Program-made: the position numbers and the translations under genes
Assembly (NCBI GenBank): GCA_021295965.1
Contig: JAGWBI010000020.1
Location: 34,116 to 93,225 of the forward strand
DNA from: Dehalococcoidia bacterium
GTDB lineage: Bacteria > Chloroflexota > Dehalococcoidia > Lucifugimonadales > UBA3495
Direction: 5' to 3'
Length of the DNA: 59,110 nucleotides
Part shown: positions 12,141 to 30,804 of the stretch, piece after piece
How the letters are laid out: every line of letters starts with the position of its first letter
How positions within the stretch are numbered: the stretch's first letter is position 1
The notes under the pieces: generated by a model
Database searches by the model: none
What the model was told of the DNA's origin: nothing
Seen by the model: only the letters and a program-made list of their open reading frames with translations

Positions 12141-12144
12141 GAGG

Positions 12145-12348: not shown

Positions 12349-12372
12349 AAAGCACCATCATTCCGGCCCACG

Positions 12373-12458
12373 GTCATTGCGAGCGAAGCGTCGCAATCTC
12401 GTCGGATTAGCAGTCAGCCTTCACCGGATTGCTACGTCGCTGCGCTCCTCGCAATGAC
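12373..12458. repeat. family A palindromic repeat, copy 2
   Basis: Begins GTCATTGCGAGCGAAGCG and ends CTGCGCTCCTCGCAATGAC, giving near-perfect inverted ends of about 12 bases. The interior differs from copies 1, 3 and 4, and lacks their GCCATCCGCCAGAGG block. It lies between the Rieske beta gene and the small gene at 12348. Confidence 0.8.
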
Positions 12459-12472
12459 AGTAGGCTGTGCCA

Positions 12473-13018: not shown

Positions 13019-13026
13019 GATCTCAC

Positions 13027-14403: not shown

Positions 14404-14603
14404 GTTCATCCTCCGGGCGCGGCTCGCCCCGCTGAATGGTATCACAACAAGCTGGGAGGATGTTGTCACGCCGCTTTTTTCGAACACGCCGGCAGTGTCC
14501 AATCGCCAGTTGCGGAATCAGCGGTAATCAGCCGATACCCAAGCAGACTTCCGGCTCTTGTCGCTGATACTCTGCAATAGACTAAACGTGTCAGGCTGGT
14601 AAA

Positions 14604-15008
14604 ATGGAAACGAGGGAGAGCAATCGGTCGTGGTGGAGATTTGTTGACGGCTCGTTGTCGGTGACAGTCAGCATGGCGATTGCGGTGGCGATAAGCACTT
14701 GTCGTTCCTGCTTGGGAGTTTGGGGAATCGGGTTCCTCAGGGGCCTGACAGACAAAGACGACGGTGAAATAATACTGGCGACGCTGCTGTTGTTTCCCAC
14801 CACCGTCGCCCTCTATGGAGTTTTGCAGATGTGGTTCGCAGCCAAAGAAGCCGTTGAGAAAAGGGCTACGGAACGTGGCCGTCGGGAAGGGCGGCGCGAG
14901 GAACGTGAGCGCATCAGTAAAGTACTGGCACAGCACGGCGTCGAATTGCCTCCAGAAGTCGCTGGCATCCTCGCCGGCGAACCCGACGATAATCCGCCGG
15001 CTGGCTAG
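14604..15008 (+). CDS. hypothetical membrane protein with charged C-terminal helix
   Basis: A 134-residue protein of unknown family. It has two predicted membrane segments (about residues 17-35 and 57-80) and then a very charged helix (RATERGRREGRREERERI) that could be a coiled coil or bind nucleic acid. It stands alone on the plus strand between two minus-strand operons, and its stop lies 7 bases from the convergent dehydrogenase gene end. The ribosome binding site is poor, so the start is uncertain. No function is proposed. Confidence 0.5.
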   Translation: METRESNRSWWRFVDGSLSVTVSMAIAVAISTCRSCLGVWGIGFLRGLTDKDDGEIILATLLLFPTTVALYGVLQMWFAAKEAVEKRATERGRREGRREERERISKVLAQHGVELPPEVAGILAGEPDDNPPAG

Positions 15009-15014
15009 AACCCC

Positions 15015-15917
15015 TTACCTGCCGCTCAACTCGACGCCCGCCAACGCTTCCAAGATGCGGGCTACCGTCGGATAACCTTCACCACCCCAGCCGGCTTCCT
15101 GAGCCTGCTTGTACAGGGCGTCCGCCACCGACCCCGTGCCAGCCGGAGCATCAAGGCGTCTCGCAAGTTCGCAGGCCAACGCCACGTCCTTGGCGACAAT
15201 GTCCAGCGTGCCGCCGGCCGCGAAGGAACGGTTGAGTATGCTGTTGGGGATAGCGTTGAAGGCACGGCTGGCGCCGGCGCTCACCGGCACTATCTCCGCC
15301 AACACCGCCGGATCGACCCCGCCCAGGCGTCCGATGAGCATACCCTCGATGGCTGCGATCAGGTTGGTGTAGCCCATGTATTGTGTGGTCAGCTTGGCGG
15401 TGCATCCCGCGCCGGCCGGTCCGACGTAGAATATCTGCGCGGCCACCGCGTCCAACGCCGGACGAACCTGCTCAAACACCGACCGGTCTCCGCCCACCAT
15501 CATCGTCATGGTCGGAGGGCGGCCGCTCACCGGGGCGTCCAGCATGGCCAGGCCCCGGTCGGCGCAGGCGGCGGCCACCCGGCGGGCCACGTCCGGATCG
15601 TTGGTGGTGGTGTCCACCAGCGCCGCGCCATCCGACATCGCCGCCAACACTGCGGCCTCGTCGCCCAGCAGTACCGACTCTACCTGGGCGGGGCCGGGCA
15701 GCGATGTCCAGACCATTTCGCAGCCCGGCACCGCATCCTCCGCGTTGTCGGCCCAACGCGCGCCTCGTTCCAGCAGCGGTTCCACCGCTTCGCGATTGAT
15801 GTCGAAAACGGTGAGGTCAGCGCCGGCGTCCAGCAGACAGCCTGCCATCAGGCTGCCCATGGTGCCAACGCCGATGAAGGAGTGTTTTGGTTTAGAACCA
15901 GATGCTGATAATTGCAT
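15015..15917 (-). CDS. NAD(P)-dependent beta-hydroxyacid dehydrogenase
   Basis: The 300-residue protein belongs to the 3-hydroxyisobutyrate / tartronate-semialdehyde / 6-phosphogluconate dehydrogenase superfamily. The dinucleotide motif reads FIGVGTMGSLMAG, the substrate loop is DAPVSGRPPT, where most relatives have D-A-P-V-S-G-G, and the catalytic Lys is expected in G-A-G-C-T-A-K-L-T-T-Q. Its start overlaps the end of the HELAH peptidase gene by 26 bases, so it is the last gene of that minus-strand run. The substrate cannot be told; SGRPP in place of SGG is a local oddity. Confidence 0.88.
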   Translation of the reverse strand: MQLSASGSKPKHSFIGVGTMGSLMAGCLLDAGADLTVFDINREAVEPLLERGARWADNAEDAVPGCEMVWTSLPGPAQVESVLLGDEAAVLAAMSDGAALVDTTTNDPDVARRVAAACADRGLAMLDAPVSGRPPTMTMMVGGDRSVFEQVRPALDAVAAQIFYVGPAGAGCTAKLTTQYMGYTNLIAAIEGMLIGRLGGVDPAVLAEIVPVSAGASRAFNAIPNSILNRSFAAGGTLDIVAKDVALACELARRLDAPAGTGSVADALYKQAQEAGWGGEGYPTVARILEALAGVELSGR

Positions 15918-16470
15918 AAACCGTACCTGCAGTGACTGCTACCCGCCACAGCGTCCATCCCATCACGCAAAACCTTTCGGTGTAGCCGAGCATATAGAGA
16001 GGCCAAGTAATCAAACGGAATGGGAAATTCCACACCGTCATATCGGTATCGTAGAGATTTTCCAGATCGCGATCGCTGGGCAAACCCGAATAAGTCGCCG
16101 AAATCGCGACCCAGGCGCTCATCCCGAGGATTACCAGTTGCCAAATGGGATTGCCCGAACCGTCGCGAAACAGCCACCACGCGTAAGCCAGTGTGCCGCT
16201 CCAGATCAGCGCTGCCAGGAGCAGCGGGGCAGTGCCAATCAGGAAACTGTGCCAACCGTACGGCGGCCCTTCGTGAACGACGTACCCGGACCGTCCGCCG
16301 CCCGAGTTGAACTCCAGATATCTCACTTCCAGCACGCGATGACCCAGCAGATAGCACATCAGCTGGTGCGCCAGCTCGTGGAAGAATATTCCGGGGATCG
16401 TGATGTAGTGCAGTATAAGCCCCGGCCCCTGAATAGCCCATACCGCCAGCCAAACGACGAAGTTAAACAT
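15892..16470 (-). CDS. M50-like integral membrane zinc metallopeptidase
   Basis: A 192-residue, highly hydrophobic protein with HELAH near residue 31, the H-E-x-x-H zinc motif of M50 site-2-type intramembrane proteases. About five membrane segments are visible. No PDZ domain is present and the length is short for RseP/SpoIVFB, so it is closer to compact M50-like relatives. A second-motif Asp (as in N-x-x-P-x-x-x-L-D-G) is not obvious; G-L-P-S-D-R-D-L may be the equivalent. The proteolytic role is inferred from the HELAH site only. It lies downstream of two lipoprotein genes. Confidence 0.72.
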   Translation of the reverse strand: MFNFVVWLAVWAIQGPGLILHYITIPGIFFHELAHQLMCYLLGHRVLEVRYLEFNSGGGRSGYVVHEGPPYGWHSFLIGTAPLLLAALIWSGTLAYAWWLFRDGSGNPIWQLVILGMSAWVAISATYSGLPSDRDLENLYDTDMTVWNFPFRLITWPLYMLGYTERFCVMGWTLWRVAVTAGTVYAIISIWF

Positions 16471-16548
16471 CAGTGGTGGTCAACCTCCGCGCCGACGGCG
16501 CATCTGACTCGCCGGTCTGGCAATGACGTTCCGTCGGCTCAGCGCGGG

Positions 16549-16980
16549 TCACCCTGCGTACAAGCCGACGCACTCATTCTGGCTGATTGAACGAAATACC
16601 GGGTCCTGATCGAAACGCCGCGCATACTCCTGGGAAATTTCGTCAATGAGCGTCATGCCATCCTCGATGGGCGGCGGCGTGACCAGCATCACCATTTTGG
16701 TGTTCTCGCGTTCAATAACTCGATCCGGCCTTTGCCACTGCCCTTTGACCTCCAGCACGCTCAACCCCTGGGGAAAGCGCGGCGTGATGGTGTCCGCCAG
16801 GAAAGCGTCCCACTCCTCGGGCGAAACTGATCTCCCGTCGGCGTGGTCCAGCCCGAAAAACAACTCGAACCGAACGACTTCCTGCAATCCCTCGGGACAT
16901 TGAAACTCGGTTTCGGTGATGCAGCCCGTGTACACGAGCAGACCAATTATCAACGCGGATAGTGCGACGCTAATTCTCAA
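16549..16980 (-). CDS. DUF3574 lipoprotein (copy 2)
   Basis: The 143-residue protein has a signal peptide with lipobox V-Y-T-G-C (Cys at about 19), then a DUF3574 domain. It shares F-F-G-L-D, S-x-E-E-W-x-x-F-L-A-D-T-I-T-P-R-F-P-Q-G-L-S-V-L-E-x-K-G-Q-W and the F-D-Q-D-P-V-F end with the neighbouring copy at 16996. The two genes are 15 bases apart and are a tandem duplication. The function of DUF3574 is unknown; an extracytoplasmic lipid-anchored location is predicted. Confidence 0.85.
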   Translation of the reverse strand: MRISVALSALIIGLLVYTGCITETEFQCPEGLQEVVRFELFFGLDHADGRSVSPEEWDAFLADTITPRFPQGLSVLEVKGQWQRPDRVIERENTKMVMLVTPPPIEDGMTLIDEISQEYARRFDQDPVFRSISQNECVGLYAG

Positions 16981-16995
16981 GACTGGACTGCTCCG

Positions 16996-17427
16996 TCAGT
17001 ACACTTCCGCGCAGGCCGGCAGGGCCGTGTGAAACACCGCCTGCTGTTCAAAGCGCGCCTTGTATATGTCCGAAATCTCCCGAATTGCGGCCATGCTGGC
17101 GTCAGACGCACCAGCAGGAACCAGCACGTTCAACAATTTGGTGGATTCCCGATACAGGCGGCCCTCGTCGGTGTCGAGCCACTGGCCGCGAGCTTCCAGC
17201 ACGGTCAGCCCGTCGGGGAACCGAGGAGTGACGGTATCCGCGAGGAAGGTTTGCCACGCTTCTTCGCTGACGGTCCCGCCGTCTCCTTTCTCCTGCCCAA
17301 AGTACACATTCAATTCAATGAATGTATCCATCCCGTCAGGGCATTCAAAATCGCCGCCGACCGCGCAGCCCACCGTGAACAGCAGGCACAGCGCGGCGGC
17401 GGCGATTACTGATGCCGACAACCGCAT
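16996..17427 (-). CDS. DUF3574 lipoprotein (copy 1)
   Basis: The 143-residue paralogue of the gene at 16549, with lipobox L-F-T-V-G-C (Cys at about 21) and a DUF3574 core, including ADTVTPRFPDGLTVLEARGQ and the E-Q-Q-A-V-F-H terminal block. It is the same length as its twin, and each has one Cys soon after the lipobox (F-E-C-P and F-Q-C-P) and one near the C-terminus, so a conserved disulfide is likely. It starts 5 bases after the LLM gene stop, so both copies may be read from that gene's promoter. Confidence 0.85.
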   Translation of the reverse strand: MRLSASVIAAAALCLLFTVGCAVGGDFECPDGMDTFIELNVYFGQEKGDGGTVSEEAWQTFLADTVTPRFPDGLTVLEARGQWLDTDEGRLYRESTKLLNVLVPAGASDASMAAIREISDIYKARFEQQAVFHTALPACAEVY

Positions 17428-17432
17428 CGTTT

Positions 17433-18599
17433 CTAGTAGTGGTCCACCAATGGGATCTCGTGCAGCGCCGGTATCACTTCACGGCCAATCAGCTCGATGG
17501 ACCGCATCACGTCCTCGTGGGCCATGGCGCCCTCGTTGCCGTAGATGTGCAGGTAGCCGGGGTTGAGCCGCTCCACGATCATGGACAGCTTTTCCCGCAC
17601 CGTGTCGGGGCTGCCCACGATGATGTTGTTGGCCTCTTGCAGTTCCTCGTAGGTCATCATCCGTCCGAAGCCGCCGGCGCCCGGCAGGGTCCGCTGGATG
17701 TTGACCGCCTCACGGGACTGGTACCCGGGCGGGTCGTTGTGTTCGCGGGGGCCACGGTTGCGATGCTCCTGGGTCCACAGGAACTCGCGGCCAATCTCCT
17801 GGGCTTTCTCGTCAGTGTCGGCGCAGAAAATCCGCAGCAGGTACCCGAAGTGCTCCGGCCCCGGCTCGAACCCGGTTTCTCGTGCCGTGTCGATGTACAC
17901 GTCACGCAGCCGGTGGGTGTGGTCCAGCAGCGATCCCAGGTTCATGTACGGATGCTCGTGTCGCGCCGCCCACACCACGGACTCCGGGCTGCTGAACCCG
18001 GGGAACCAGATGGGCGGATGGGGCTTCTGCATGGGCAGCACCCAGGGGTTCACCTTCCGATAGTGGTAGTACTCGCCCTCGTAACGGAACGGCCCCGGCT
18101 CGGTCCAGCACTTGATGATCAAGTCGTGGGCTTCCTCAAAGCGGTCCCGGTTTTGCGGCGGAGCCACGCCGCCCTGCAGTGTTTCCACCGCGGTGCCCCG
18201 CACGAAACCGGAGATAATCCGCCCGCCGGAGATGCAGTCCAGCATGGCGATTTCCTCGGCCATGCGGATGGGGTCGTTGATGGCGATCACGTTGCCCAGG
18301 ATGGCGATCTTGGTGTTGCGCGTCACCTTGGAGATGACGGCGGCGTCGATGTTGACCGCCGGCTTCATGCACCAGTACGAAGCATGGTGTTCGTTGGACA
18401 TGATGCCGTCGAACCCGTTTTCGTCGGCCCAGGCGTACTGGTCGTGATAGTTGGTGTAGAGGACGTGGGCCTTCTCCGGGTCAAAATGGGAATTGGAGAA
18501 ATCCAGCCGCCCCGAGTCGTACTGCGAAACGTCCTCATCGGTGACATGGCCGTAGGGTTGTTCGGAAAACCAGAAAACTTCCACCTTGTCTTTCGGCAT
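17433..18599 (-). CDS. LLM class flavin-dependent oxidoreductase
   Basis: A 388-residue luciferase-like monooxygenase, third of four in the window. Clear signs are G-F-D-G-I-M-S-N-E-H-H, A-V-I-S-K-V-T-R-N-T-K-I-A-I-L-G-N, R-M-A-E-E-I-A-M-L-D with S-G-G-R, and HPPIWFPGFSSPESVVWAA. The E-H-H motif and length are typical of the LuxA-like alkane/long-chain group. ATG 18599 follows CGAGGAGGCTCCTG, a good ribosome binding site; the open frame further upstream is not family-like. It heads a minus-strand run of six genes down to 15015. Confidence 0.9.
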   Translation of the reverse strand: MPKDKVEVFWFSEQPYGHVTDEDVSQYDSGRLDFSNSHFDPEKAHVLYTNYHDQYAWADENGFDGIMSNEHHASYWCMKPAVNIDAAVISKVTRNTKIAILGNVIAINDPIRMAEEIAMLDCISGGRIISGFVRGTAVETLQGGVAPPQNRDRFEEAHDLIIKCWTEPGPFRYEGEYYHYRKVNPWVLPMQKPHPPIWFPGFSSPESVVWAARHEHPYMNLGSLLDHTHRLRDVYIDTARETGFEPGPEHFGYLLRIFCADTDEKAQEIGREFLWTQEHRNRGPREHNDPPGYQSREAVNIQRTLPGAGGFGRMMTYEELQEANNIIVGSPDTVREKLSMIVERLNPGYLHIYGNEGAMAHEDVMRSIELIGREVIPALHEIPLVDHY

Positions 18600-18771
18600 C
18601 AGGAGCCTCCTCGGTGTGAGCGGACGGCGCTGGACCGTTGGAATCCGGGCCGGTAGTTGATGCCGGCAGTATAGGGGCGGGTGGTGGCGGTTGCAAATGA
18701 GAACGTTATCAACCGTCTCGCGGGCCGACCCGGCAACTTTTCGTAAGGCACGTAACCCGAGGGGGCGCCGT

Positions 18772-19584
18772 TTAGCCGTCAGGGTGCAGGTCAGCCTCGG
18801 ACGTGCCCGTGATTTCGTGGACGCGGGCAACGATGGCGTCTTTGACCTGTTCTACTTGCTCAAAGAACGCTTGGGGTTCTATGGGGATGGGCCCGGGCGG
18901 ATCGTAACGCTTTCCACCATAGAAACCCTCCAGCCACCCCAGGCAGGGTGGGATGTGGAGGCCGTGCCTTTCGCTGAGTTGGTCGAGTTGCGCTTCCAGT
19001 TCCCGGAGGTTGTGGGTGCGGGTGTAGGCCATTCCCAAAGCCGAGATAAGGGCCTTGTAGCAGTGATCCAGAGTTTCCTGAGCGTGTCGGCCCATGTACT
19101 TTTCGGCGCCATCGGCAAAGTCGTGGCGCATTGACCTGAACGAGTCAAGAGCATCCCGAAGGCGTTCGCTGATGTCGGGCCAGTTATCTGGGTAGCCGTC
19201 ATCGTCGTCGGCGTCGGGGTCGATGGCGGAGAAAGGGATTTGCGTCATCGGGATACCGTCTCTGATGATGTCGTAGGCGACGTGATTGACGGCGCGGCGG
19301 CCCCGGCGAAAGCGCGGGTGGTCAATCTGCAAAACGTCCACTTTTACCGAGTGGCCGTACTCCCGCTCGGCGGCGGCGCGGGCGGTACGGGAAGCCGCGA
19401 CCCAGGCATCGTGGCCGCTGGCTTCCCGGTCGGGCACCAGCATCATCAGGTCGATGTCGGAGCGATTATGGTAATCGCCGCGGGCCCGGGAGCCGAACAG
19501 GACGATGACAGCGTCGTTCTGTAATTGCTCCTGCACCGTCTGCGCCACGGTGACGGCTTTGGGGTCGGCTTTTTTGTGTACCAT
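18772..19584 (-). CDS. MNT nucleotidyltransferase-HEPN domain fusion
   Basis: The 270-residue protein joins two toxin-antitoxin-type domains. Residues about 20-110 are a minimal nucleotidyltransferase with FGSRARGDYHNRSDIDLM, the G-S-x(10)-D-x-D signature, and a third acidic residue in V-K-V-D-V. Residues about 145-240 are a HEPN-type helical domain (DSFRSMRHDFADGAEKYMGR, then E-T-L-D-H-C-Y-K-A-L-I-S-A-L). In separate gene pairs the nucleotidyltransferase silences the HEPN toxin by adding AMP; here both are in one chain. An Asp-rich stretch (DPDADDDDGYPDN) links them. ATG 19584 is used. Confidence 0.82.
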   Translation of the reverse strand: MVHKKADPKAVTVAQTVQEQLQNDAVIVLFGSRARGDYHNRSDIDLMMLVPDREASGHDAWVAASRTARAAAEREYGHSVKVDVLQIDHPRFRRGRRAVNHVAYDIIRDGIPMTQIPFSAIDPDADDDDGYPDNWPDISERLRDALDSFRSMRHDFADGAEKYMGRHAQETLDHCYKALISALGMAYTRTHNLRELEAQLDQLSERHGLHIPPCLGWLEGFYGGKRYDPPGPIPIEPQAFFEQVEQVKDAIVARVHEITGTSEADLHPDG

Positions 19585-19617
19585 GGCTGTTTGTCGGCAA
19601 CACCGCGGCAAAAAGCG

Positions 19618-20544
19618 TTAGAAGTTAGGCCGGTCGTTGCTGTCCGGTAGGTCGTAGTTGGGGCTGTCGATGCTGCCGTAGTTGGGGCGGACGTTCATTT
19701 CCCGGAGGCGGCGGACCCGCTCCTCGATGGGTGGGTGGGTGGAGAACAGCCGAGCCATGGAACGCCCGCTGAGGGGGTTGACGATGAACAGATGCGACGC
19801 CGCTTCGTTCACCTTCATGGGCCGGATTTCGGAACCCATTTCCAGCTTTTCCAGAGCGCGGGCCAGGGCCTCCGGGTTGCCGCAGTTGTGCGCCCCGGTC
19901 TGGTCGGCCTGGAACTCCCGGGCCCGGGAGATTGCCATTTTGATTATCGTCGCCGCGATGGGCATGATGATGGCGATGATGAGTAGTGAGACTATGTTGC
20001 CGGCCCCGCCATCGTCGTCATCGTCGTGATGGCCGCCGAAACTGCCGAAAATGGCGGCGAACTGGGCCATGATCGCCAGCATGGAAATGGCGCCGGCGAT
20101 GGTGGCCACGATGGCCATGATGAGGGTGTCCCGGTTGCCCACGTGAGCCATTTCGTGGGCCATCACGCCCGCTAATTCTTCGCGAGTAAGTATGCGGCGG
20201 ATGCCGGTGGTGACAGCGACGGTGGCGTTCTGCGGGTTGCGTCCCGTGGCAAAGGCGTTGGGGGAGTCGGTGTCTATCTCATACACCTTGGGCATGGGCA
20301 TATTGGCCAGTTCAGCCTGCTCCGCCACCAGCCGGAAGAGTTCAGGGTCCTCTTCCTCGGTTATCTGGCGAGCGTGGGCCATGCTGAGGGCGATCTTGTC
20401 GCTGAACCAATAGGCTCCGAAGTTCATCGCCAGCGCAATTATCACGGCGATGATGACGCCGGCCTGACCACCTATCGCCGCGCCGATGAGCAACAATAGC
20501 CCGGTCAGTATCATCAACAGGAAAAACGTCTTGATCGTGTTCAT
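19618..20544 (-). CDS. htpX: M48 family membrane protease HtpX
   Basis: A 308-residue membrane zinc protease of the HtpX family, which degrades misfolded membrane proteins. Two N-terminal membrane helices are followed by SPNAFATGRNPQNA, the zinc motif MAHEMAHVGNRD, two more membrane segments and SRAREFQADQTGA with the third ligand Glu. The C-terminus (FSTHPPIEERVRRLREM) is typical. A D-rich loop (HHDDDDDGG) between membrane helices 3 and 4 is unusual. ATG 20544 has GGGAG at proper spacing, better than ATG 20550. Confidence 0.95.
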   Translation of the reverse strand: MNTIKTFFLLMILTGLLLLIGAAIGGQAGVIIAVIIALAMNFGAYWFSDKIALSMAHARQITEEEDPELFRLVAEQAELANMPMPKVYEIDTDSPNAFATGRNPQNATVAVTTGIRRILTREELAGVMAHEMAHVGNRDTLIMAIVATIAGAISMLAIMAQFAAIFGSFGGHHDDDDDGGAGNIVSLLIIAIIMPIAATIIKMAISRAREFQADQTGAHNCGNPEALARALEKLEMGSEIRPMKVNEAASHLFIVNPLSGRSMARLFSTHPPIEERVRRLREMNVRPNYGSIDSPNYDLPDSNDRPNF

Positions 20545-20651
20545 AGCCATCGCTCCCGAAGGCTGCGTAATTCGGCAAGTCTTTACACCATTCTACCATC
20601 GCCCCCAAGGCGACTGAATCGACGGCGCGGGCCCTGCGGGGTCTTTCAGTT

Positions 20652-20767
20652 GTCATTGCGAGGTGCCCGCGCCGTGCCAATCTTGTCTAGTTGTCAGACG
20701 CTTTTGTCAGGATTGTCCGCATCCTGTGTACGAGATTGCCATCCGCCAGAGGCGGACTCGCAATGAC
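20652..20767. repeat. family A palindromic repeat, copy 3
   Basis: Starts GTCATTGCGAGGTGCCCGCG and ends GGCGGACTCGCAATGAC, giving about 11-base inverted ends. The right third is identical to copies 1 and 4. It lies in the intergenic space upstream of htpX, right next to a family D element. Confidence 0.8.
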
Positions 20768-20826
20768 AAAACCGGAAACCGCCAGGCCCTGACACAGGGC
20801 AATCGCATTTGGACAGGAAGGCATCC

Positions 20827-20899
20827 GTCATTCCCGCGAAAGCGGGAATCCAGTGGCCCAAATAGTAGATTCGTGGACTCCTGCTTCCGCAGGAGTGAC
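20827..20899. repeat. family D palindromic repeat (GTCATTCCCGCGAAAGCGGG type)
   Basis: GTCATTCCCGCGAAAGCGGG forms a stem-loop (CCCGC/GCGGG) at the left end, and CTGCTTCCGCAGGAGTGAC closes the right end with a second stem-loop (CTGC..GCAG). The outer ends GTCAT/GTGAC are roughly inverted. A shorter relative lies at 29113-29137. This two-hairpin type is widespread in bacterial genomes. Confidence 0.75.
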
Positions 20900-20986
20900 G
20901 GGTGAGCCAGTTTGAAATGCGATTGCCCTCGGCCCTGACAGGCATCCGATGCGCCGACAAGAAAAGTATGCTAGGGTAGTTTCGCA

Positions 20987-21751
20987 ATGATATGGCCGCG
21001 CAACCCATTCAGCGTCTGTGAGCGCGAGCCGGGAACGCTCAAATTCTCGTCTTGCGTTTTGCTGGTTCTCATTTTGGCCCTGGGCGTGATCCTGGCCGGC
21101 TGCGCCGCGCCTGCCGAGCGGTCGGCGACGCCGGACTACCGGGCAACCATACAGATTTTGCTGCCCACGGCGGAACCCACGGAACCTCCCGCCCCGACGG
21201 CTATGCCCACGCTCGAGTCGCCCACTGCCACGTCTTCGCCGACCGATACACCTGAGCCGACTGCCACCCTCCGGCCCACCTATACGCCGCGCCCTCTGCC
21301 GGCGCAGGCTGAATCGGGCGGATCGAGCGAGCGAGAGCAGTCCATCCCCTTCAAGGCACCCCTGCTTGATGGAACCGACCTGGTCCTGGCGGACACCATC
21401 GGCACCCCGACCTTGCTGGCCTTCTGGGCGCCCTGGTGACCACACTGCCAACGGGAGTTGCCCGTTGTAGCAGAGCGGTACCGCGAGAAGTTCGAGCCGG
21501 CCGGCATCAACGTCATCGGCGTTTCTCAGTTCAGGACCACAGAGGCCGACACCATCGCTTTCGTGGAACGCAACCAGCTGACCTTTCCCAACATCTACGA
21601 TGAGCATGCCCAATTGGCGTCCGCCTACGGCATACAGGGCGTCCCCAGCTACGTGTTCCTGGACAAAGAGGGCCGCATTGCCCACCGCAGCGCCGGCGCC
21701 CGTGGCGTGGACTTGATCGAAACCTTGCTTGACGACCTGTCGGCCGAGTGA
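20987..21751 (+). CDS. TlpA/thioredoxin-fold lipoprotein with in-frame UGA (putative selenoprotein)
   Basis: Translated through TGA at 21437-21439 this is a 254-residue membrane-anchored thioredoxin-fold protein. It has a signal peptide with lipobox L-A-G-C (Cys 39), a long Thr/Pro-rich linker (about residues 55-105), then a TlpA/AhpC-TSA domain. The redox motif reads F-W-A-P-W-U-P-H-C-Q-R-E-L-P, so UGA replaces the first Cys of C-x-x-C (codon 151) and the resolving Cys 154 is kept. The cis-Pro loop follows as I-Q-G-V-P-S-Y-V-F. Both halves are in one frame with no other stop, and a hairpin begins six bases after the UGA (separate entry). Role: probably extracytoplasmic thiol-disulfide or peroxide chemistry. 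The alternative is a Cys-to-stop mutation. Confidence 0.82.
21437..21473 (+). promoter_or_regulatory. candidate bacterial SECIS element
   Basis: Directly after the UGA (21437-21439) lies a hairpin: lower stem CTGC 21445-21448 with GCAG 21470-21473, an internal bulge, and upper stem AACGGG 21450-21455 with CCCGTT 21461-21466, closing the loop AGTTG (21456-21460). The apical loop starts 17 bases after the UGA and has G at its second position. This fits the published bacterial SECIS pattern of a short upper stem, an early loop G and a spacing of roughly 16-37 bases. GC-rich coding DNA forms hairpins easily, so this is supportive and not proof. Confidence 0.65.
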
Positions 21752-22011
21752 CCGGCCCCGGACCTCCGGCGCCACCAACCGAGGCGTCCCCGAAATGGAG
21801 TGTGATGGCGCTTCAGGACGCCGCTAAAACGCGGTAATAACGAACCTCAATTTACATAAACCCGCACGTGATACAGCGTCATGCCCATTTACTTTGCTGG
21901 TATCATGGAGGCATGGGAGCGGACCACGATATTGGAGCGTTCCTGACGATTGGAGATTTTTGAGCACGTCGCTGACGCGAGGAATGGCGTCGCGGCGTTT
22001 GGAGGTGGGTT

Positions 22012-22362
22012 ATGCCTAGCAAAGGCAAACGGGTGGCTTCCCGCCAGAGCAACCTGCGTCGCCGTCGTGGCAACGCAAACCGCAATACGGGGCCTCGGCC
22101 CAACGCGGCAACGGTTCCGACTGCCACCGCCGTCGCTGATGCGCCAGCAACCAGCGCCGCCCCCGGAGCCCCGGCGGCAACCGCAGCGCCGGCGGATCCG
22201 GCGCCGGCCACTGGCGAGCGCGCTCGGCCAATCAGGCAGCCCCAGGGGCGGCGGTTCCAGCGCCCGGCGGCCTACAATCACGTTGGCTCGGAACTGAGGC
22301 GCATCGGCATCTTTTCCGGCGTCCTGCTGGTGGCCCTGATCGCCGTCTCCTTCGTGCTATAG
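22012..22362 (+). CDS. small tail-anchored, Ala/Pro-rich basic protein
   Basis: A 116-residue protein of unknown family. The first 30 residues are strongly basic (K-R-V-A-S-R-Q-S-N-L-R-R-R-R-G), residues 35-75 are Ala/Pro/Thr-rich and disordered, and a single hydrophobic segment (GIFSGVLLVALIAVSFVL) ends the chain, so it is a C-terminal tail anchor with the basic part in the cytoplasm. TTTGGAGGTGGGTTATG gives a strong ribosome binding site. It precedes uvrC by 26 bases and is probably co-transcribed with it. A nucleic-acid- or membrane-tethering role is possible but not shown. Confidence 0.7.
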   Translation: MPSKGKRVASRQSNLRRRRGNANRNTGPRPNAATVPTATAVADAPATSAAPGAPAATAAPADPAPATGERARPIRQPQGRRFQRPAAYNHVGSELRRIGIFSGVLLVALIAVSFVL

Positions 22363-22388
22363 ACTGACCCGCAAGGGAAGGGGCGGCA

Positions 22389-24245
22389 ATGGCGCGGCAA
22401 GAGTTTGACCATCGCCTGTTGGTGACTCCGGAGCGTCCAGGCGTATATCTGATGAAGAACGCCGGCGGCGCGGTGATTTACGTCGGCAAGGCGGCGGTGC
22501 TCCGCAACCGGCTGCGTTCCTACTTCGGCTCCCCGGCCGGCCTGGACCGCAAGACGCGCCGCATGGTCAGCGAGATGGCTGACTTCGAATATATTGTCAC
22601 CGACACCGAGGCCGAGGCGCTGATCCTGGAGAACACGCTGATCAAGCGCCATCGCCCTTACTTCAACGTCCGCCTCAAGGACGACAAGACCTATCCCTAC
22701 CTGAAGGTTGATCTCAGCGAAGAGTTTCCCCGGGTGTACATCACCCGTGGCGTGCATGACGACGGCGCTCGTTATTTCGGGCCTTTCGCCAGCGCGGGCA
22801 GCGTGCGCCAGTCCATGGACCTGGTGAAAAAGTTGTTTCCCTACCGCTCCTGCACCAAGCGGATCACGGGAACCGACCCACGGCCCTGCCTGGAATACTA
22901 CATCCACCGCTGCGTCGGACCCTGCGCCGGCCTGGCCAGCCGTGATGAATACGACGAGGTTATCAAGCAGGTCATCCTGTTCCTGGAAGGCAATACCGAA
23001 TTGGTAACCGGCCAGTTGCGGGGTAAGATGGAGGAGGCGTCGGAGGCGCTGGAATTCGAGCGCGCCGCCGCCCTGCGCGACCAGATGGCGGCTATTCACA
23101 AGTTCGAGGAGGAACGCACCGTAAAGGTGGATTCGGGGCGGTCAACGGATCTGGACGCCATCGCGCTGTCAGTGGCGGCCAACGAGACCTGGGTTGAAGT
23201 GTTCTTCGTGCGGCGGGGCAAGCTCATCGGCCGCGACCACTTCTTCATGGAAGGGCCACAGGACGACGAGCCAGGAGAGATAATCGCCCAGTTCGTGCAG
23301 CAGTTCTACGCCAACGCCCTGGAGGTGCCACCGCTGGTGATGGTACAGCACGACCCGCCGGCGGAGGGCGCTGATGTCCTGCAACAGTTCCTGCGGAACA
23401 AACGCGGCGGCGCGGTACGTATCTACCGGCCCCAGCGCGGCGAGAACCGCAAGCTCATGCAGGTGGTGGCCGACAATGCCGCCGAGGGTCTGGCCCAGCA
23501 TCGGGTGAAGTGGTTGAACCGGTCCGACGCGATACAGGGGGCGCTTGCCGAGCTGGAAGAGGATCTGAGCCTGCCGGCTGCGCCGCGTCGCATGGAGTGT
23601 TATGACATATCCCACATCCAGGGCAGCAACCTGGTGGGGAGCATGGTGGTCTTTGACGACGGCAAGCCACGCACCCGGGACTATCGTCGTTTCAAGATCA
23701 AGGCGGTGGACGGCGTGGACGACTACGCCAGCATGAAAGAGATGCTAACCCGCCGGTTCAAGCGGCTGAGCGAGGCTATCGCGAATCCCGACCCGGACGG
23801 CAAGGTGGACACCTGGGGCGTGATGCCCGACCTGGTGATCATTGACGGGGGCAAGGGGCACCTCTCAGCGGCGCGGGAGGTGATGCTGCACCTGGGCCTG
23901 GAGCAAATACCATTGTGTTCCCTGGCCAAGGAGAACGAGGAGATTTTCGTTCCCCACACGCCGGAACCCATCATGCTGCCCCGGGATTCCCAGGCCCTCT
24001 ACCTGATGCAGCGGATACGGGACGAAGCGCACCGTTTCGCCATCAGCTTCCACCGCAACCTGCGCTCCAAGAGCAGCCTGAAGTCGCCCATAGATATGGT
24101 CACGGGCATCGGGCCGAAGCGGAAACGGATGTTGCTGCGCCGATTTGGGTCGCTGCAGGGCATCAAGGAAGCCAGCGTTGAGGATATTGCCGCCGTACCC
24201 GGCCTGACCCGTTCGCTGGCGGTGAGATTAAAGCAAACGATTTAG
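22389..24245 (+). CDS. uvrC: UvrABC system protein C
   Basis: The 618-residue UvrC makes both incisions during nucleotide excision repair. Domain order is complete: GIY-YIG nuclease at the N-terminus (GVYLMKNAGGAVIYVGKA), a Cys-containing linker (CLEYYIHRCVGPCAG), the UVR motif near residues 205-240, the RNase H-like endonuclease half with MECYDISHIQGSNLVGSMVV and DLVIIDGGKGHL, and C-terminal helix-hairpin-helix repeats (GIGPKRKRMLLRRFG, AAVPGL). No defects are seen. Confidence 0.97.
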   Translation: MARQEFDHRLLVTPERPGVYLMKNAGGAVIYVGKAAVLRNRLRSYFGSPAGLDRKTRRMVSEMADFEYIVTDTEAEALILENTLIKRHRPYFNVRLKDDKTYPYLKVDLSEEFPRVYITRGVHDDGARYFGPFASAGSVRQSMDLVKKLFPYRSCTKRITGTDPRPCLEYYIHRCVGPCAGLASRDEYDEVIKQVILFLEGNTELVTGQLRGKMEEASEALEFERAAALRDQMAAIHKFEEERTVKVDSGRSTDLDAIALSVAANETWVEVFFVRRGKLIGRDHFFMEGPQDDEPGEIIAQFVQQFYANALEVPPLVMVQHDPPAEGADVLQQFLRNKRGGAVRIYRPQRGENRKLMQVVADNAAEGLAQHRVKWLNRSDAIQGALAELEEDLSLPAAPRRMECYDISHIQGSNLVGSMVVFDDGKPRTRDYRRFKIKAVDGVDDYASMKEMLTRRFKRLSEAIANPDPDGKVDTWGVMPDLVIIDGGKGHLSAAREVMLHLGLEQIPLCSLAKENEEIFVPHTPEPIMLPRDSQALYLMQRIRDEAHRFAISFHRNLRSKSSLKSPIDMVTGIGPKRKRMLLRRFGSLQGIKEASVEDIAAVPGLTRSLAVRLKQTI

Positions 24246-24285
24246 ACCGACCGGCGCAGTGAGTGTCGGTCGCAGGTGAGCCGGA

Positions 24286-25710
24286 ATGAATCGCCAGACC
24301 GACCCTCAATCCACCGGAGACCCGGATGCCGTGTCGTTGCCCCTGGGGGGCGAAGGTAGCCGGGCCAATCCTCATTTCCACGGCCAACGAATCCGGGAAG
24401 CCCTGGGTCGTGACCAGGTGGGGACCGCCGCGGCGCTCCTGCGAGAGATGCTGTCGGCGGACCAAGGCATCCTCCTGCAAGGGATGTCCAGGGAAGAGCG
24501 CCGCCTGCTCGTTGCCCGGCTGCCGCAGCGGGAATTATCGGACATCCTGGATGAGGCTCCCACTCCAGCGGCGGCAGCGATCGTGCGGGAACTTCCGCCG
24601 GATCGCGCCGCGGACCTGTTGGACGACGTTGACAGCCACACGGTGGCCGACGTCCTCCAGGAACTGCCCGACCAACGCGCCGCCGCCATCCTGGAGGAGT
24701 TGGAACGTCCCCAGGACGTGGCGCCGTTGCTCCAGTATCCGCCGGACACCGCCGGCGGCATGATGACGACGGACTTCCCTCGAATCCGCCACGACGTCAC
24801 CGCCGGCAACGCCCTGGATGTGCTCCGCCTTTTCGGGGAAGACGCCGAGGGGTTCGGTTGGGTATGTGTTCTGGACAACCGGCAGCGGTTGATGGGCGCG
24901 GTTAGCATAACTCAGCTGGCGCTGGCCACGCCGGCGCGATTGGTTCGGCACATCACCGAGGAGCATGGGCATCGCCTGGTGTCGGTCGTACCGGCAACGG
25001 ATCAGGAGGAAGTCCATCGCTTGATGACCCGCCACTCGTTCAGCATCGTGCCTGTGGTGGACGAGGAGCAACGGGTATTGGGTGTCATTCGGGCTGAGGA
25101 AGCGATGTACGTCGGAGAGGAGGAAGCAGCGGAAGATATGTTGCGCATTGCCTCAGCGCCGGGCGAGCGGGTATTTGGCCCGCTGCGGTTGTCGGTGGCG
25201 CACCGGCTGCCCTGGCTGGTGGTTAATCTGGGCACCGTCCTTGCGGCTGCGGCAGTGGTGAACCTGTTTGAATCGACCATCGGAGCTATCGCCATGCTGG
25301 CGGTCTTCCTGCCGGTGGTTGCCGGCCAGGGAGGAATCGCCGGGACGCAGACGGTTACGCTGGTAGTGCGCGGCCTGGCGTTGGGAGAGGCGCCGCTTCA
25401 GTCCGGGTGGCGTCTGCTGGGACGAGAAATGCTGCTCGGATTGCTGCATGGCCTCGCGTTGGCGGTGGTGGCCGGCGCGCTGGGCTGGTTGTGGAAGGGC
25501 AGCATTGGCCTGGGGGCGGCGCTGGCCATCGCGATGGCGGGGAACCTGCTGGTTGCCGCGCTCACCGGCGCCGGCGTGCCCCTGCTGCTGCGCCGGCTCA
25601 GCATCGACCCAGCGGTATCGTCCGCGGTATTCGTGACCACTTTCACGGACGTGTTCGGCTTCCTCATTTTCCTGGCGGCCGGCGGGTTTTTGGTGAGCGC
25701 TTTGGGGTGA
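24286..25710 (+). CDS. mgtE: magnesium transporter MgtE
   Basis: The 474-residue protein is a full MgtE Mg2+ channel: an N-terminal helical domain with the R-x-x-L-L-V-A-R-L-P and L-P-P-D-R-A-A-D-L-L-D-D repeats (residues about 55-160), two CBS domains (about 165-290), then five membrane helices containing PVVAGQGGIAGTQTVTLVVR and the V-F-V-T-T-F-T-D-V-F-G-F end. The CBS and N domains sense cytoplasmic Mg2+ and close the pore in characterised relatives. A 7-bp inverted repeat (GACCGAC 24245-24251, GTCGGTC 24265-24271) lies just upstream. Confidence 0.95.
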   Translation: MNRQTDPQSTGDPDAVSLPLGGEGSRANPHFHGQRIREALGRDQVGTAAALLREMLSADQGILLQGMSREERRLLVARLPQRELSDILDEAPTPAAAAIVRELPPDRAADLLDDVDSHTVADVLQELPDQRAAAILEELERPQDVAPLLQYPPDTAGGMMTTDFPRIRHDVTAGNALDVLRLFGEDAEGFGWVCVLDNRQRLMGAVSITQLALATPARLVRHITEEHGHRLVSVVPATDQEEVHRLMTRHSFSIVPVVDEEQRVLGVIRAEEAMYVGEEEAAEDMLRIASAPGERVFGPLRLSVAHRLPWLVVNLGTVLAAAAVVNLFESTIGAIAMLAVFLPVVAGQGGIAGTQTVTLVVRGLALGEAPLQSGWRLLGREMLLGLLHGLALAVVAGALGWLWKGSIGLGAALAIAMAGNLLVAALTGAGVPLLLRRLSIDPAVSSAVFVTTFTDVFGFLIFLAAGGFLVSALG

Positions 25711-25809
25711 CGAGATTGCGGAATTGGCGCGCCAAACTGCCTTGCCAGAAAACGCGACGTTCCTTTACTATTGCGTTAGGGCGCACATCATAATATTGGA
25801 AGACGCAGG

Positions 25810-26526
25810 ATGAACAAGCTCAGCATAACATTGCCACTGGGCGCCCAGGTTTCTATCGAATCCGATGACCCGGAGTTAGTGCGTGAGGTGCTGTATTCCT
25901 TCATGCCCCAGTTGATCGGGTCCAACGGCGAGACGCCCGCGCCGGCGCTGCCAACCGCATCCGGGCCGCCGGTTTCTACCAACGGGCACAGCCATGAAAA
26001 CGGTGTTGCTTACGAGAGACCTGCAGAAAAGGCGCCGGAACCCATGGCCGCAGTTCCTCAAGGCGATATCAGGCCAGCCGTCGTTGTTCAGCAGGTCACC
26101 GCCGCCCCACTCGTCGCGGCTCCCCAGTCGGATGCGCTGAACGGCGGACCCAACGGCGCGAACCCGACAGTAAGAACGACGCCGGACCAGTTGGAGTTCA
26201 TGGCCTTTTGCCAAAGGGTCAACCCACTGGGCGATATGCGGAAGGTCGTGGTGGCTGCGGAAGCAGCGCACCGTTACCTTAACATCGTCAGCGTTGACCC
26301 CGACGAGCTCGAGCGCCTGTTCACCTTGATCGGATGGCCGATACCGCACAGCTTCGTCCAGACCCTGCGCAACGCCGCGCGCACCAAGTTCCGCTGGCTG
26401 GAACGCATACCGGGCAAGTCCGGACACTACAAGGTAACCAACACCGGCCGCAGCATCGTGCTCGGTGAAAACCTCCCGTCGTTAGAAACGGCGCCGTCGC
26501 AATCAGAAGCCGACGGGCAGGACTGA
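25810..26526 (+). CDS. hypothetical protein with possible C-terminal winged helix
   Basis: A 238-residue protein not recognised by family. Residues 1-35 look like a small alpha/beta unit (LSITLPLGAQVSIESDDPEL), residues 40-125 are Pro/Ala/Gly-rich and probably disordered, and residues about 130-220 are helical with a final beta-hairpin (GKSGHYKVTNTGRSIVLG) that resembles a winged-helix DNA-binding end. A CATAAT box at 25789-25794 and TTTACT at 25764-25769 may be a promoter with a long 19-base spacer. The start is supported by AGGA, though close to the ATG. Function unknown. Confidence 0.55.
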   Translation: MNKLSITLPLGAQVSIESDDPELVREVLYSFMPQLIGSNGETPAPALPTASGPPVSTNGHSHENGVAYERPAEKAPEPMAAVPQGDIRPAVVVQQVTAAPLVAAPQSDALNGGPNGANPTVRTTPDQLEFMAFCQRVNPLGDMRKVVVAAEAAHRYLNIVSVDPDELERLFTLIGWPIPHSFVQTLRNAARTKFRWLERIPGKSGHYKVTNTGRSIVLGENLPSLETAPSQSEADGQD

Positions 26527-26616
26527 ATACTTTCGACAGATCGCCTCTGCCATATGAGGCAGGGCGTCTCGGTCCATCCCAAACGGCGGCCCGTGTCTGA
26601 TACCTCGCGTCAATGA

Positions 26617-26644
26617 GGTTCTGCCCACGCAGGGCGGCAGAACC
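26617..26644. promoter_or_regulatory. perfect 9-bp hairpin in leader of methyltransferase gene
   Basis: GGTTCTGCC at 26617-26625 pairs perfectly with GGCAGAACC at 26636-26644 across a ten-base loop. It lies about 40 bases before the methyltransferase ATG and has no T-run after it, so it is more likely a leader hairpin or an operator than a terminator. Confidence 0.4.
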
Positions 26645-26683
26645 CCAATACAACAACGCTTCTCATATCCCGGGGGCATAACT

Positions 26684-27511
26684 ATGACCACAACCATGGA
26701 TATCAATGACGTCGGGATGACGGCTTTCTTCATCGCTCATTTCCGCGACGCGGAGCGTGATCGCGCGGATGGCCTGTTCGACGACCCCTATTCACGGTGG
26801 TTCGTGCCTGATGAGGTCAGAACGTACGCCGAAAAATTCGCCGAACTATGTCCTGAATTCGAGACGCTCATCCGCTGCCGGCTGCTCTTCTTTCGCGAGT
26901 TGGTGCGCGAGCAGATCGAATATGGCGTGAGGCAGGTGGTCTCGGTGGGCGCCGGTTTCGATACCCGGCCGGCCATCTTCCGTACTGAGGGCGTCACTTT
27001 TTTCGATGTTGACCAACCCGCCGTCGTCCAGTACAAGCGCGACGTCCTAGAAGGGCACGGGCTGGAACCTTGGCCGGCGGTCGCCGGCAACTACCTGGAC
27101 GTGAACCTACCCCGGCGACTGCAGGAGGCCGGGTTCGACCCCGATCTGCCGTCCCTTTTCATCTGGGAAGGCAACACCATGTATTTGCCGCGGAACCTGA
27201 TTTTCGGCTTCCTCAATCAGCTGGACGCGGAACTGCCCGCCTTCACCATTGCCTTCGATTACATGTCCACCAGGGTTGTCAATTGTTCCACCGGTGTTGA
27301 CAGCGTGAACGCCGTTTTCGACTACTTTTACGAGCAGTTCACCCCATTCATCACCGGTTTCGATGATCCCGGCGTTTTTGAGCGGGCGACCCCTCTCAAA
27401 ATAGCCGCATCCGGTGGAATGGAGGAGGTATTTCACAGCCGCGCTCCGCAGTATGCCGGCGCCCTGGCGCCTCTGGCAGGGTTGTACAGCTACTGCATAC
27501 TCGTCAAATGA
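26684..27511 (+). CDS. SAM-dependent methyltransferase, leucine carboxyl methyltransferase-like
   Basis: The 275-residue protein fits the LCMT/TIGR00027 class of SAM methyltransferases. The N-terminal T-A-F-F-I-A-H-F-R-D-A-E-R-D-R-A-D-G-L-F-D-D-P-Y-S block, the SAM-binding strand QVVSVGAGFDTRPAIF and the following F-F-D-V-D-Q-P, and the I-W-E-G-N-T-M-Y-L-P motif are all typical. Substrates of bacterial members are mostly unknown and include polyketide and small carboxylate O-methylation. It stands alone with GGGGGC-type purines before the ATG. Confidence 0.85.
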   Translation: MTTTMDINDVGMTAFFIAHFRDAERDRADGLFDDPYSRWFVPDEVRTYAEKFAELCPEFETLIRCRLLFFRELVREQIEYGVRQVVSVGAGFDTRPAIFRTEGVTFFDVDQPAVVQYKRDVLEGHGLEPWPAVAGNYLDVNLPRRLQEAGFDPDLPSLFIWEGNTMYLPRNLIFGFLNQLDAELPAFTIAFDYMSTRVVNCSTGVDSVNAVFDYFYEQFTPFITGFDDPGVFERATPLKIAASGGMEEVFHSRAPQYAGALAPLAGLYSYCILVK

Positions 27512-27705
27512 CGGTTTGGGGAAACCGCCGATCTCCCTGCTGCACCACGCCGCCGGTCGAGGCGCACCCCGAATGTGAAGGATGGGCCACCGTTGCGCCA
27601 TCTGGTTAAAACTCGGGCTGCCGTAGTACAATCTTCGCCACGATACCCAACACAGGCGTCCTGCTTCCTTCCGGCGGCATGGAACCTACATAAGGAGATC
27701 CAGCC

Positions 27706-29101
27706 ATGCGAATGTACATCTGCGGTGAGTGGGTTGACCGCGATGACAAGATGCCCGTTATCAATCCCTTTGACCAGACTGCTTTTGACACCGTGCCGCG
27801 AGGCTCGGCAGCCGACGTGGAGGCGGCCATTGCCAGCGCGGTCCGTGGGGCCGCCGTGATGGGCAAACTGCCCGCCCATCGCCGTTACACGATCCTGAAG
27901 CGCGCCGCCGACCTGATGGACGAACGTGCCGACGACCTGGCCGAGACCATCACCCGGGAAGAGGGCAAGGTAATCGCCGAGGGACGCACCGAGGTGCAGC
28001 GGGCCATCCAGACCATCACCCTGTCAGCAGAGGAGGCCAAGCGCCTGCACGGCGAGACCATCCCACTTGACGCTGCGCCCGGCGTGGTAAGCCAGTTCGG
28101 GTTCACCGTGCGCGTGCCGGTGGGCGTCGTCGCAGCCATCGCGCCGTTCAACTTTCCCCTCAACCTGGTGTGCCACAAGGTTGGTCCCGCGCTGGCCGCC
28201 GGCAACGCCGTGATCCTCAAGCCGGCTGGCGACACGCCGCTTTCGGCCCTGAAACTCACCGAGATACTTTTGGAAGCCGGTCTGCCCGAAGAGGCCATCC
28301 AGACCATCACCGGCTCCGGCGCCGAGATCGGCGATGCCATCACCGGGTCCTCCGATGTCCGCAAGATCACCTTCACCGGCAGCATGGAAGTGGGCGACCG
28401 CATCTGCCGAAACGCCGGCATCAAGAAGGTGACCATGGAGCTGGGTTCCAACAGCCCGCTCATCATCATGTCCGACGCCGACATTGAGAAGGTGGCAGCG
28501 GCCACCGTGTCCAGCAGTTTCTCCAACGCAGGACAGGTGTGCATCTCCACCCAGCGAGTCTTCGCCGCCCGCACCATCTATGCCGACTTGCTGGACGCGC
28601 TGGTCAAGCCGACCCAGGAGTTCAGCGTCGGCAACCCCTTCGACGAGGACGTGAAGATGGGGCCGATGATCCGCCAGAACGACGCCGAGCGCGTCGAGAG
28701 CTGGATCGCCGAAGCCGTGGGACAGGGCGCGCGCGTCATCGCCGGCGGCGACCGGCAGGGCACCCTGCACACCGCCACCGTGATCGCCGACGCCAGACCG
28801 GAGATGCTGATTTCCCGGGAGGAACTCTTCGGCCCGGCCGTTGCCGTCAGCGCCTTTGACGACATCGACGACGCCATCGCCAAGGCCAACGACACCCGAT
28901 TTGGCCTTTCCGCCGGCATCTTCACGCAGAACGTGGACTGGGCCATGCGGTTCGCGCTGGAGGTCCATTCGGGCAACCTGCACATCAACTCGTCGCCCCA
29001 ATGGCGCGCCGACGTGATGCCCTACGGCGGCCTCAAGGACAGCGGCATGGATCGAGGAAATGACCGAGCTAAAGACCGTAGTGTTCCACATGGGCGGTTA
29101 G
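27706..29101 (+). pseudogene. aldehyde dehydrogenase, 3' end frameshifted
   Basis: Residues 1-448 are an NAD(P)+ aldehyde dehydrogenase: A-P-F-N-F-P-L-N motif, F-T-G-S-M-E-V-G, the Glu motif MELGSNSP, and catalytic Cys in S-N-A-G-Q-V-C-I-S. The frame is lost at 29050. After it, the next frame reads I-E-E-M-T-E-L-K-T-V-V-F-H-M-G-G and stops at TAG 29099-29101, which is the family's normal C-terminus. Restoring 23 bases (for G-R-E-G-P-R-Y-A) would rejoin both parts exactly. The lesion removes the last dimer-contact strand. TACAAT at 27627-27632 and AAGGAGATC before the ATG suggest normal expression signals. Confidence 0.8.
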
Positions 29102-29112
29102 TCCAACGCGCC

Positions 29113-29173
29113 GTCATTCCCGGTTTCGCGGGAACCCAGGCCGATGTAGGGGCGAATAATCATTCGCCCCTAC
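29113..29173. repeat. tandem family D and family B repeats
   Basis: GTCATTCCCGGTTTCGCGGG (29113-29132) is a family D stem-loop. It is followed at 29146-29173 by a family B element, GTAGGGGCGAATAATC joined to its inverted half ATTCGCCCCTAC, a perfect palindrome with a tiny loop. Both lie in the 98 bases between the true aldehyde dehydrogenase stop and the PIG-L start. The broken frame reads through them without a stop. Confidence 0.85.
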
Positions 29174-29199
29174 CCATTCCAATACAACGGAGATACAAC

Positions 29200-30012: not shown

Positions 30013-30055
30013 ACTTGGTGTACGGCGTATAATGGTTCAGGGCGAGCAGTTTATC

Positions 30056-30781: not shown

Positions 30782-30804
30782 TTCCAGCGTAGTGTTGCAG
30801 AACC

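Follow-up and report, generated by a model that had tools for sequence, protein, structure and literature searches.

A UGA-containing gene for a ResA/TlpA-like protein of Dehalococcoidia very probably encodes a selenoprotein

In this study, we characterized a gene of a Dehalococcoidia bacterium that lies in a window of 59,110 nucleotides (G000:C7:34116-93225), the window being the whole stretch of DNA analysed. The source is a draft genome of 3.23 Mb in 86 contigs, 86.6% complete and with 5.9% contamination. The gene occupies positions 20987-21751 of the plus strand and codes for a thioredoxin-fold protein with an in-frame UGA at its active site. Our results indicate, with high confidence, that this is the gene of a selenoprotein in which UGA is decoded as selenocysteine (Sec). 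We infer Sec insertion from the reading frame and its UGA, the Sec machinery of the genome, a covarying hairpin downstream of the UGA, purifying selection past this codon and the predicted fold.

Conservation of the in-frame UGA

The gene is a single frame interrupted only by TGA at 21437-21439, as seen both in the sequence and in its translation with TGA read as U. A preliminary description of this DNA had reported two open frames sharing one reading frame on either side of this TGA, with W-A-P-W-[UGA]-P-H-C around it, and the translation agrees on both counts. The full active-site context is F-W-A-P-W-U-P-H-C-Q-R-E-L-P, in which TGA occupies the position of the first active-site cysteine. 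PF00578 spans the UGA (residues 121-233, E 4.5e-22, 78.7 bits versus a gathering score of 26), and PF13905 also matches the 254-residue protein. Taken alone, the fragment upstream of the UGA matched no NCBIfam model, and the fragment downstream of it is ResA-like (NCBIfam, E 3.7e-14).

The UGA is a fixed trait of the genus. Some homologue (E <= 0.001) was found in 249 of 250 genomes of the order, and among the matches listed every TGA row belongs to the gene's own genus. Each of the 14 genomes of the genus (the source genome and its 13 relatives) contributes one or more of these rows, and in one of them (G184) the gene is cut by a contig end. The preliminary description had considered that homologues in related strains might carry TGC here, or that the base might have been misread. 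Instead, all 21 genes read in the genus (16 close genes and five divergent paralogues) have TGA, not TGC or TGT, and a sequencing error is very unlikely given that 14 assemblies agree on this codon. This conservation, together with the ResA-like character of the downstream fragment alone, places the observation beyond chance. Of note, one locus (L083, G186:C144) carries two divergent UGA-bearing paralogues close together whose dipeptides differ, U-G-Y-C and U-E-R-C. Genomes labelled SB066x presumably come from sponges.

Outside the genus, every homologue read has Cys at this codon. In public named genomes we found 27 homologues, 23 with TGC or TGT and four with TGA, the latter all in Chloroflexi or Dehalococcoidia metagenome-assembled genomes. 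One of the six search patterns used for these genomes held the Cys active site, which favours Cys genes, and the four TGA homologues lie on contigs of G186, G182, G192 and G183, hence are not independent of the 21 genes. Wider searches matched 125 of 393 genomes of the class (E <= 1e-15) and two of 400 of the phylum (E <= 1e-22); in each, our gene was the only TGA row among the matches listed, which did not include the 13 genus relatives. No match turned up when phage records were searched with the gene. A tree was built from 21 Sec and 44 Cys proteins after masking the Sec position, and a branch supported at 100/100 separates its Sec genes from the rest. All 44 Cys rows, which come from the order and class, have Cys at the aligned position; these rows are the best loci returned by the searches, not a random sample.

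Selection acts on both sides of the UGA. Among 15 complete close genes, nonsynonymous differences (pN) past this codon were fewer than synonymous ones (pS) in 105 of 105 pairs, with a median ratio of 0.34, and the 33 codons upstream gave a median pN/pS of 0.37. The dN/dS downstream of the UGA ranged over 0.06-0.14 in the six pairs with the smallest pS, with values up to 0.28 among the ten listed. Thus, as in known bacterial selenoproteins, coding is conserved on both sides of the in-frame UGA and the Sec position aligns with Cys in homologues.

The genome also encodes the components of Sec synthesis and insertion, which the preliminary description had proposed to look for. We detected SelA (546.5 bits, cut-off 267.9), SelD (378.8 bits, cut-off 125) and a tRNA-Sec (69 bits, cut-off 47) with anticodon UCA according to ARAGORN. 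Moreover, SelB (356.3 bits, cut-off 242.25) lies on the same contig as our gene, about 34 kb away. Rfam at gathering scores found nothing in the window and ARAGORN found no tRNA there; these blanks do not bear on the case because the tRNA-Sec is on another contig. Across the order, 199 of 247 genomes have SelA (E <= 1e-80), which makes the Sec trait widespread in this group. The SelD gene of the source genome (L014, G000:C8:23659-24582, minus strand) itself has an early in-frame TGA, HCAG-U-AAK, which fits the UxxK motif that the main text of PMC13188914 gives for Sec-containing selenophosphate synthetase.

These data also bear on readings in which no Sec is inserted. TGA is a normal stop in this genome, where it ends seven of the 23 Pfam-supported genes of the window and also our own gene; the codon at 21437 could accordingly be an ordinary stop or a nonsense mutation that leaves a pseudogene or two split genes. 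We consider this very improbable in view of the 21 TGA codons in 14 genomes, the 105 pairs under purifying selection past the UGA, and an upstream part that matches no NCBIfam model alone next to a downstream part that is ResA-like. A changed code or suppressor tRNA inserting another amino acid would be compatible with the frame being open across TGA. Nevertheless, such decoding has a negligible likelihood, as TGA also terminates genes of this genome, the residue aligns with the catalytic Cys in 23 of the 27 named-genome homologues (the other four having TGA), and the genome holds a UCA tRNA-Sec and SelA, SelB and SelD as well as a covarying hairpin 3' of the UGA. Equally hard to credit is a real gene on the minus strand: a long open reading frame (ORF) of 316 aa (20828-21778) covers the whole gene and aligns with the antisense of homologues, as expected because the sense strand is conserved, but it has no Pfam match, the best antisense frame has 0-5 stops over the compared stretch and is stop-free in only six of the 21 genes (ours included), and it is the sense strand that holds PF00578 at 4.5e-22.

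A covarying hairpin downstream of the UGA

For the 41 nt past the UGA, the folding energy is -18.0 kcal/mol (z -3.38), and none of 200 shuffles was as low. The preliminary description had given a stem-loop of 4 + 6 bp; its start at the sixth base after the UGA and the G second in the loop hold, whereas the inner stem has 7 bp. According to the model given in the main text of PMC13188914, a bacterial Sec insertion sequence (bSECIS) has a loop of 3-9 nt with G in positions 1-2, a stem of 4-16 bp, 16-37 nt between UGA and loop, and a minimum free energy of at most -7.5. Our hairpin has a loop of 5 nt (AGUUG), a stem of 7 bp and, besides its energy, a spacing of 16 nt, which is the lower bound of the range.

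Covariation was tested by five measures on a gap-free alignment of the 16 close genes over 36 nt from the UGA. In the seven-pair helix, 92% of the cells are paired and four of the seven pairs are invariant. Double-change cells numbered 10 versus 2.8 in shuffles (0/500 as high), and the covariation score was 0.258 versus 0.084 in shuffles (0/500 as high), with slid structures scoring 0 to 0.108. Columns 14 and 30 pair as GC in eight genes, AU in five, CG in two and UA in one. Column 14 is a second codon position whose residue varies among Gln, Gly, Ala and Leu, and column 30 is the third position of an Ala or Val codon. Since column 14 alters the residue and column 30 is a third position, their agreement is unexplained by the coded protein.

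Codon usage points in the same direction. In the 15 complete close genes, the four core codons are always identical (100%) when they encode the same residue, compared with an average identity of 0.53 over 120 other codons; three of these 120 are also at 1.0, but no other run of four reaches this value. The loop codon is TTT in one gene and TTG in the other 20, and TTG makes up 18.8% of the other Leu codons. In addition, each of the 16 close Sec genes forms all six core pairs.

A number of observations weigh against this interpretation. Two of the five covariation measures fell within the shuffle range: the pairs changed on both sides (three) were equalled in 41 of 500 shuffles, and the further pair types (six) in 34 of 500. 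The outermost pair is kept in only seven of the 16 rows and unpaired in nine. Randomization of synonymous codons gave p = 0.052 for our gene and p <= 0.05 in nine of 21 genes; the hairpin of a single gene is only borderline here because the coded motif R-E-L-P favours it. Accordingly, 16 Cys homologues of the order form one to five of the six core pairs, which indicates that the motif alone yields part of the stem, and hairpin energies overlap slightly between Sec genes (-7.9 to -17.1) and Cys genes (0 to -8.9). The five divergent paralogues keep two to four of the six pairs in the register of our gene. A covariance model built from the hairpin recovers three of these paralogues (L080, L081, L082) but not the pair in L083 (E <= 5). 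Their register differs, with a stem assigned by eye as CGGC-AGUU-GCCG and supported by folds in some paralogues only. Hairpin conservation, a check suggested in the preliminary description, therefore extends to the 16 close genes, with compensatory changes, and to the divergent paralogues in altered form only. Finally, the contamination of the draft genome is a concern, though one lessened by the presence of SelB on the contig of our gene.

The same covariance model was searched over the source genome. Its best match was the site of our gene (E 1.5e-11), followed by G000:C84:144051-144085 on the minus strand (E 1.7e-4). The latter lies in a second gene (L126:1727-2242, minus strand) made of 52 codons, UGA and 119 codons, with the context FYRGVW-U-PYCSRQL. 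PF00578 runs across its UGA (62.8 bits), and its U-P-Y-C motif and similar hairpin suggest that it fits the catalogued Prx-like UxxC kind. As this gene was found by means of an RNA model, it supports the hairpin as a working SECIS in the organism; RNA match and protein homology overlap to some extent as evidence, because the coded motif is partly shared. Five weaker matches (E 0.5-4.6) followed, and the longest frames around two of them (L119, L120) gave no further candidate.

Architecture, possible role and neighbourhood

The features of the gene are collected in Table 1. Upstream of the thioredoxin domain, a predicted helix (residues 20-37) is followed by a lipobox, assigned by eye from the motif, whose Cys39 is invariant in an alignment of four sequences. 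A signal helix and a lipobox Cys kept in relatives suggest that the protein is probably lipid-anchored. The preliminary description had proposed a lipid-anchored selenoprotein joined to a Thr/Pro-rich linker, and our results support this proposal, with the anchoring graded as probable. The domain combines an AhpC-TSA/Redoxin/thioredoxin fold with the active-site motif and P220, which we take to be the cis-Pro of this fold, and thus has the marks of a TlpA/ResA-like oxidoreductase. ResA proteins are the closest solved structures, and CcmG-type proteins are also among the matches; the VIA-align structural comparison spans about residues 114-254. The score of 78.2 bits misses the NCBIfam cut-off for the ResA subfamily (NF002854, 170 bits), so that the protein is ResA-like and not filed as ResA.

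Table 1. Position of the gene and of its features within the window
Feature	Position	Strand	Details
Whole gene of the predicted selenoprotein	20987..21751	+	254 residues, U151; terminal stop TGA 21749-21751; PF00578 E 4.5e-22
Predicted signal peptide and lipobox LAGC	20987..21103	+	residues 1-39; putative lipid-attachment Cys39 = codon 21101-21103
Thr/Pro-rich low-confidence linker	21119..21340	+	about residues 45-118; pLDDT block means 44-67
ResA/TlpA-like thioredoxin domain	21341..21748	+	about residues 119-254
In-frame UGA, very probably read as Sec (U151)	21437..21439	+	TGA in 21/21 genes, 14 genomes of the genus
Putative resolving cysteine C154 of U-P-H-C	21446..21448	+	TGC (12) or TGT (9) in 21/21 genes
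Presumed cis-Pro position, P220 in GVPS	21644..21646	+	P220 invariant in two alignments
SECIS core hairpin	21449..21467	+	7 bp (21449-21455 with 21461-21467), loop AGUUG 21456-21460
Hairpin including outer 4 bp	21445..21473	+	21445-21448 with 21470-21473; outer part not generally kept in relatives

We propose that SelB and Sec-tRNA(UCA) would bind the hairpin at 21449-21467, so that the UGA at 21437-21439 is decoded as Sec. The protein would then be exported and tethered through Cys39 to the cytoplasmic membrane on its outer face, with the ResA/TlpA-like thioredoxin domain carried on a flexible Thr/Pro-rich linker. There, the selenol of U151 may attack a disulfide of the substrate (alternatively, a peroxide or another oxidised group), and the intermediate may then be resolved by C154 as a selenenylsulfide. 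The lipid anchoring, the redox direction and the nature of the substrate are likewise inferred.

On balance, we slightly favour a role as a thiol-disulfide reductase or a repair enzyme acting outside the cytoplasm and apart from cytochrome c maturation. The separation is suggested because the genome has a Cys homologue, a TlpA-like protein with CGPC (L123:5613-6320, G000:C11), clustered with CcmH and a PF01578 cytochrome c assembly gene, the latter lying about 1.9 kb before it. This CGPC protein is probably the dedicated maturation reductase. What counts against our interpretation is that neither DsbD/CcdA nor VKOR was found in the source genome (86.6% complete), so that no usual redox partner was identified.

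Two other roles were weighed. A selenoprotein that acts mainly on peroxide, with peroxiredoxin-like activity, rather than on protein disulfides seems rather unlikely. Still less probable is that the selenoprotein is itself the dedicated reductase of cytochrome c maturation, in the role of ResA or CcmG. The structural matches to ResA and CcmG-type proteins and the cytochrome c assembly proteins encoded in the genome are in agreement with such a role. Against it stand the CGPC homologue already clustered with CcmH and the PF01578 gene, and the lack of a detected CcdA/DsbD in the source genome. Moreover, none of the 30 Pfam-scanned ORFs of the window, which has further ORFs, is a cytochrome c assembly gene, and neither is any of the six neighbour ORFs identified in relatives, where most neighbours were not identified.

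A broader picture can be offered tentatively: the genus may hold a lipid-tethered, linker-extended ResA-like selenoenzyme that is fixed and repeatedly duplicated within its extracytoplasmic redox chemistry, forms a Sec-only clade in which no Cys form was found, and works without DsbD/CcdA or VKOR, the usual partners. If true, this selenoenzyme must receive its electrons by some novel route or directly from a small-molecule reductant.

The neighbourhood of the gene varies among relatives, and no operon shared with them was found for the window. Within flanks of about 0.8-5 kb, the sole shared neighbour is a luciferase-like gene (17433-18830), in one relative (L053). When about 9 kb either way was compared in eight relatives, much of the neighbourhood proved common to four close ones (L128-L131), as expected of close relatives, including a methylmalonyl-CoA mutase gene (identified on L128). 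A methyltransferase gene occurs in five of the eight (L125, L127, L128, L130 and L131; identified on L125 and L128). None of the recurrent neighbours of these eight relatives is common to the window stretch 12001-31000. A promoter scan gave no hit, and terminator-like sites numbered 3 versus 1.0 in shuffles. Upstream of the gene, at about 20829-20855, a short palindromic stretch (CATTCCCGCGAAAGCGGGAATCC) resembles, by eye, a dispersed intergenic repeat.

Three ORFs elsewhere in the window join two domains each: aldehyde dehydrogenase then PIG-L deacetylase (27706-30012, plus strand), C-5 cytosine methylase then Vsr mismatch endonuclease (54133-55596, plus strand), and nucleotidyltransferase then HEPN (18772-19611, minus strand). 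Nucleotidyltransferase and HEPN proteins are usually two separate partners of a toxin-antitoxin-like pair.

Comparison with known selenoproteins and thioredoxin-type lipoproteins

We take cd02966 to be the TlpA-like family. Selenoproteins with UxxC in PF00578, PF08534, PF13098 and cd02966 domains are catalogued in the main text of PMC13188914; Prx-like, PF13098 and thiol-disulfide isomerase-like (pfam13905) kinds are listed in that of PMC9312934; and a thiol-disulfide isomerase-like UxxC family of four sequences from Sargasso Sea data appears in that of PMC1088965. The word lipoprotein does not occur in the main texts of these three papers. The preliminary description did not recall the architecture proposed here as having been described, a claim that stands in part: UxxC TlpA-like and PF00578 selenoproteins are catalogued and lipoprotein thioredoxins are known, but no description of a lipid-anchored UxxC TlpA/ResA-like selenoprotein was met in the literature searched, a scope that left subscription journals mostly outside.

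For Chloroflexota, the present gene is a well-supported example of an extracytoplasmic UxxC protein that is probably tethered to the membrane. Its Sec-only clade, with Cys relatives at hand, makes Sec and Cys comparable in the same fold, and its hairpin model uncovered another selenoprotein gene candidate in the same genome. Genes with a Sec UGA are easily halved by annotation, so that ours is likely misannotated in the genomes of the genus.

Among lipoproteins, the exposed thioredoxins Etrx1 and Etrx2 of Streptococcus pneumoniae share, according to the titles of their structures, a lipid-anchored thioredoxin-type domain with our protein. These proteins have Cys, and their partners are CcdA and MsrAB; CcdA was not found in the source genome. 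ResA of Bacillus and StoA likewise have Cys where our protein has Sec. The protein scores below the NCBIfam cut-offs for both (ResA 78.2 of 170 bits, StoA 65.2 of 210 bits), and no cytochrome c gene was seen beside its own. The NF041054 model, named as a ResA-like WAxxUGC protein, shares the ResA-like domain and, by its name, an active-site Sec; our protein reaches 55 bits, far below the cut-off of 300, and has UPHC instead of UGC, which places it outside this family.

The closest likeness is with catalogued UxxC selenoproteins. Thiol-disulfide isomerase-like UxxC proteins (cd02966 in PMC13188914; pfam13905 in PMC9312934; PMC1088965), which we compared by description, share UxxC, and PF13905 matches our protein; unlike ours, they are presented in the main texts of these papers with no mention of a lipoprotein architecture. 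The Prx-like PF00578 UxxC kind (PMC13188914, Table 1, WP_010940744.1), compared by domain and motif, shares with our protein both PF00578, at 78.7 bits against 26, and U-x-x-C, here U151-P-H-C154. To this kind our protein adds a lipoprotein signal and a long Thr/Pro linker, and its nearest solved relatives are ResA-like. Altogether, the protein belongs to already catalogued UxxC kinds, and what is unusual is its anchor, itself probable, and its presence throughout a genus.
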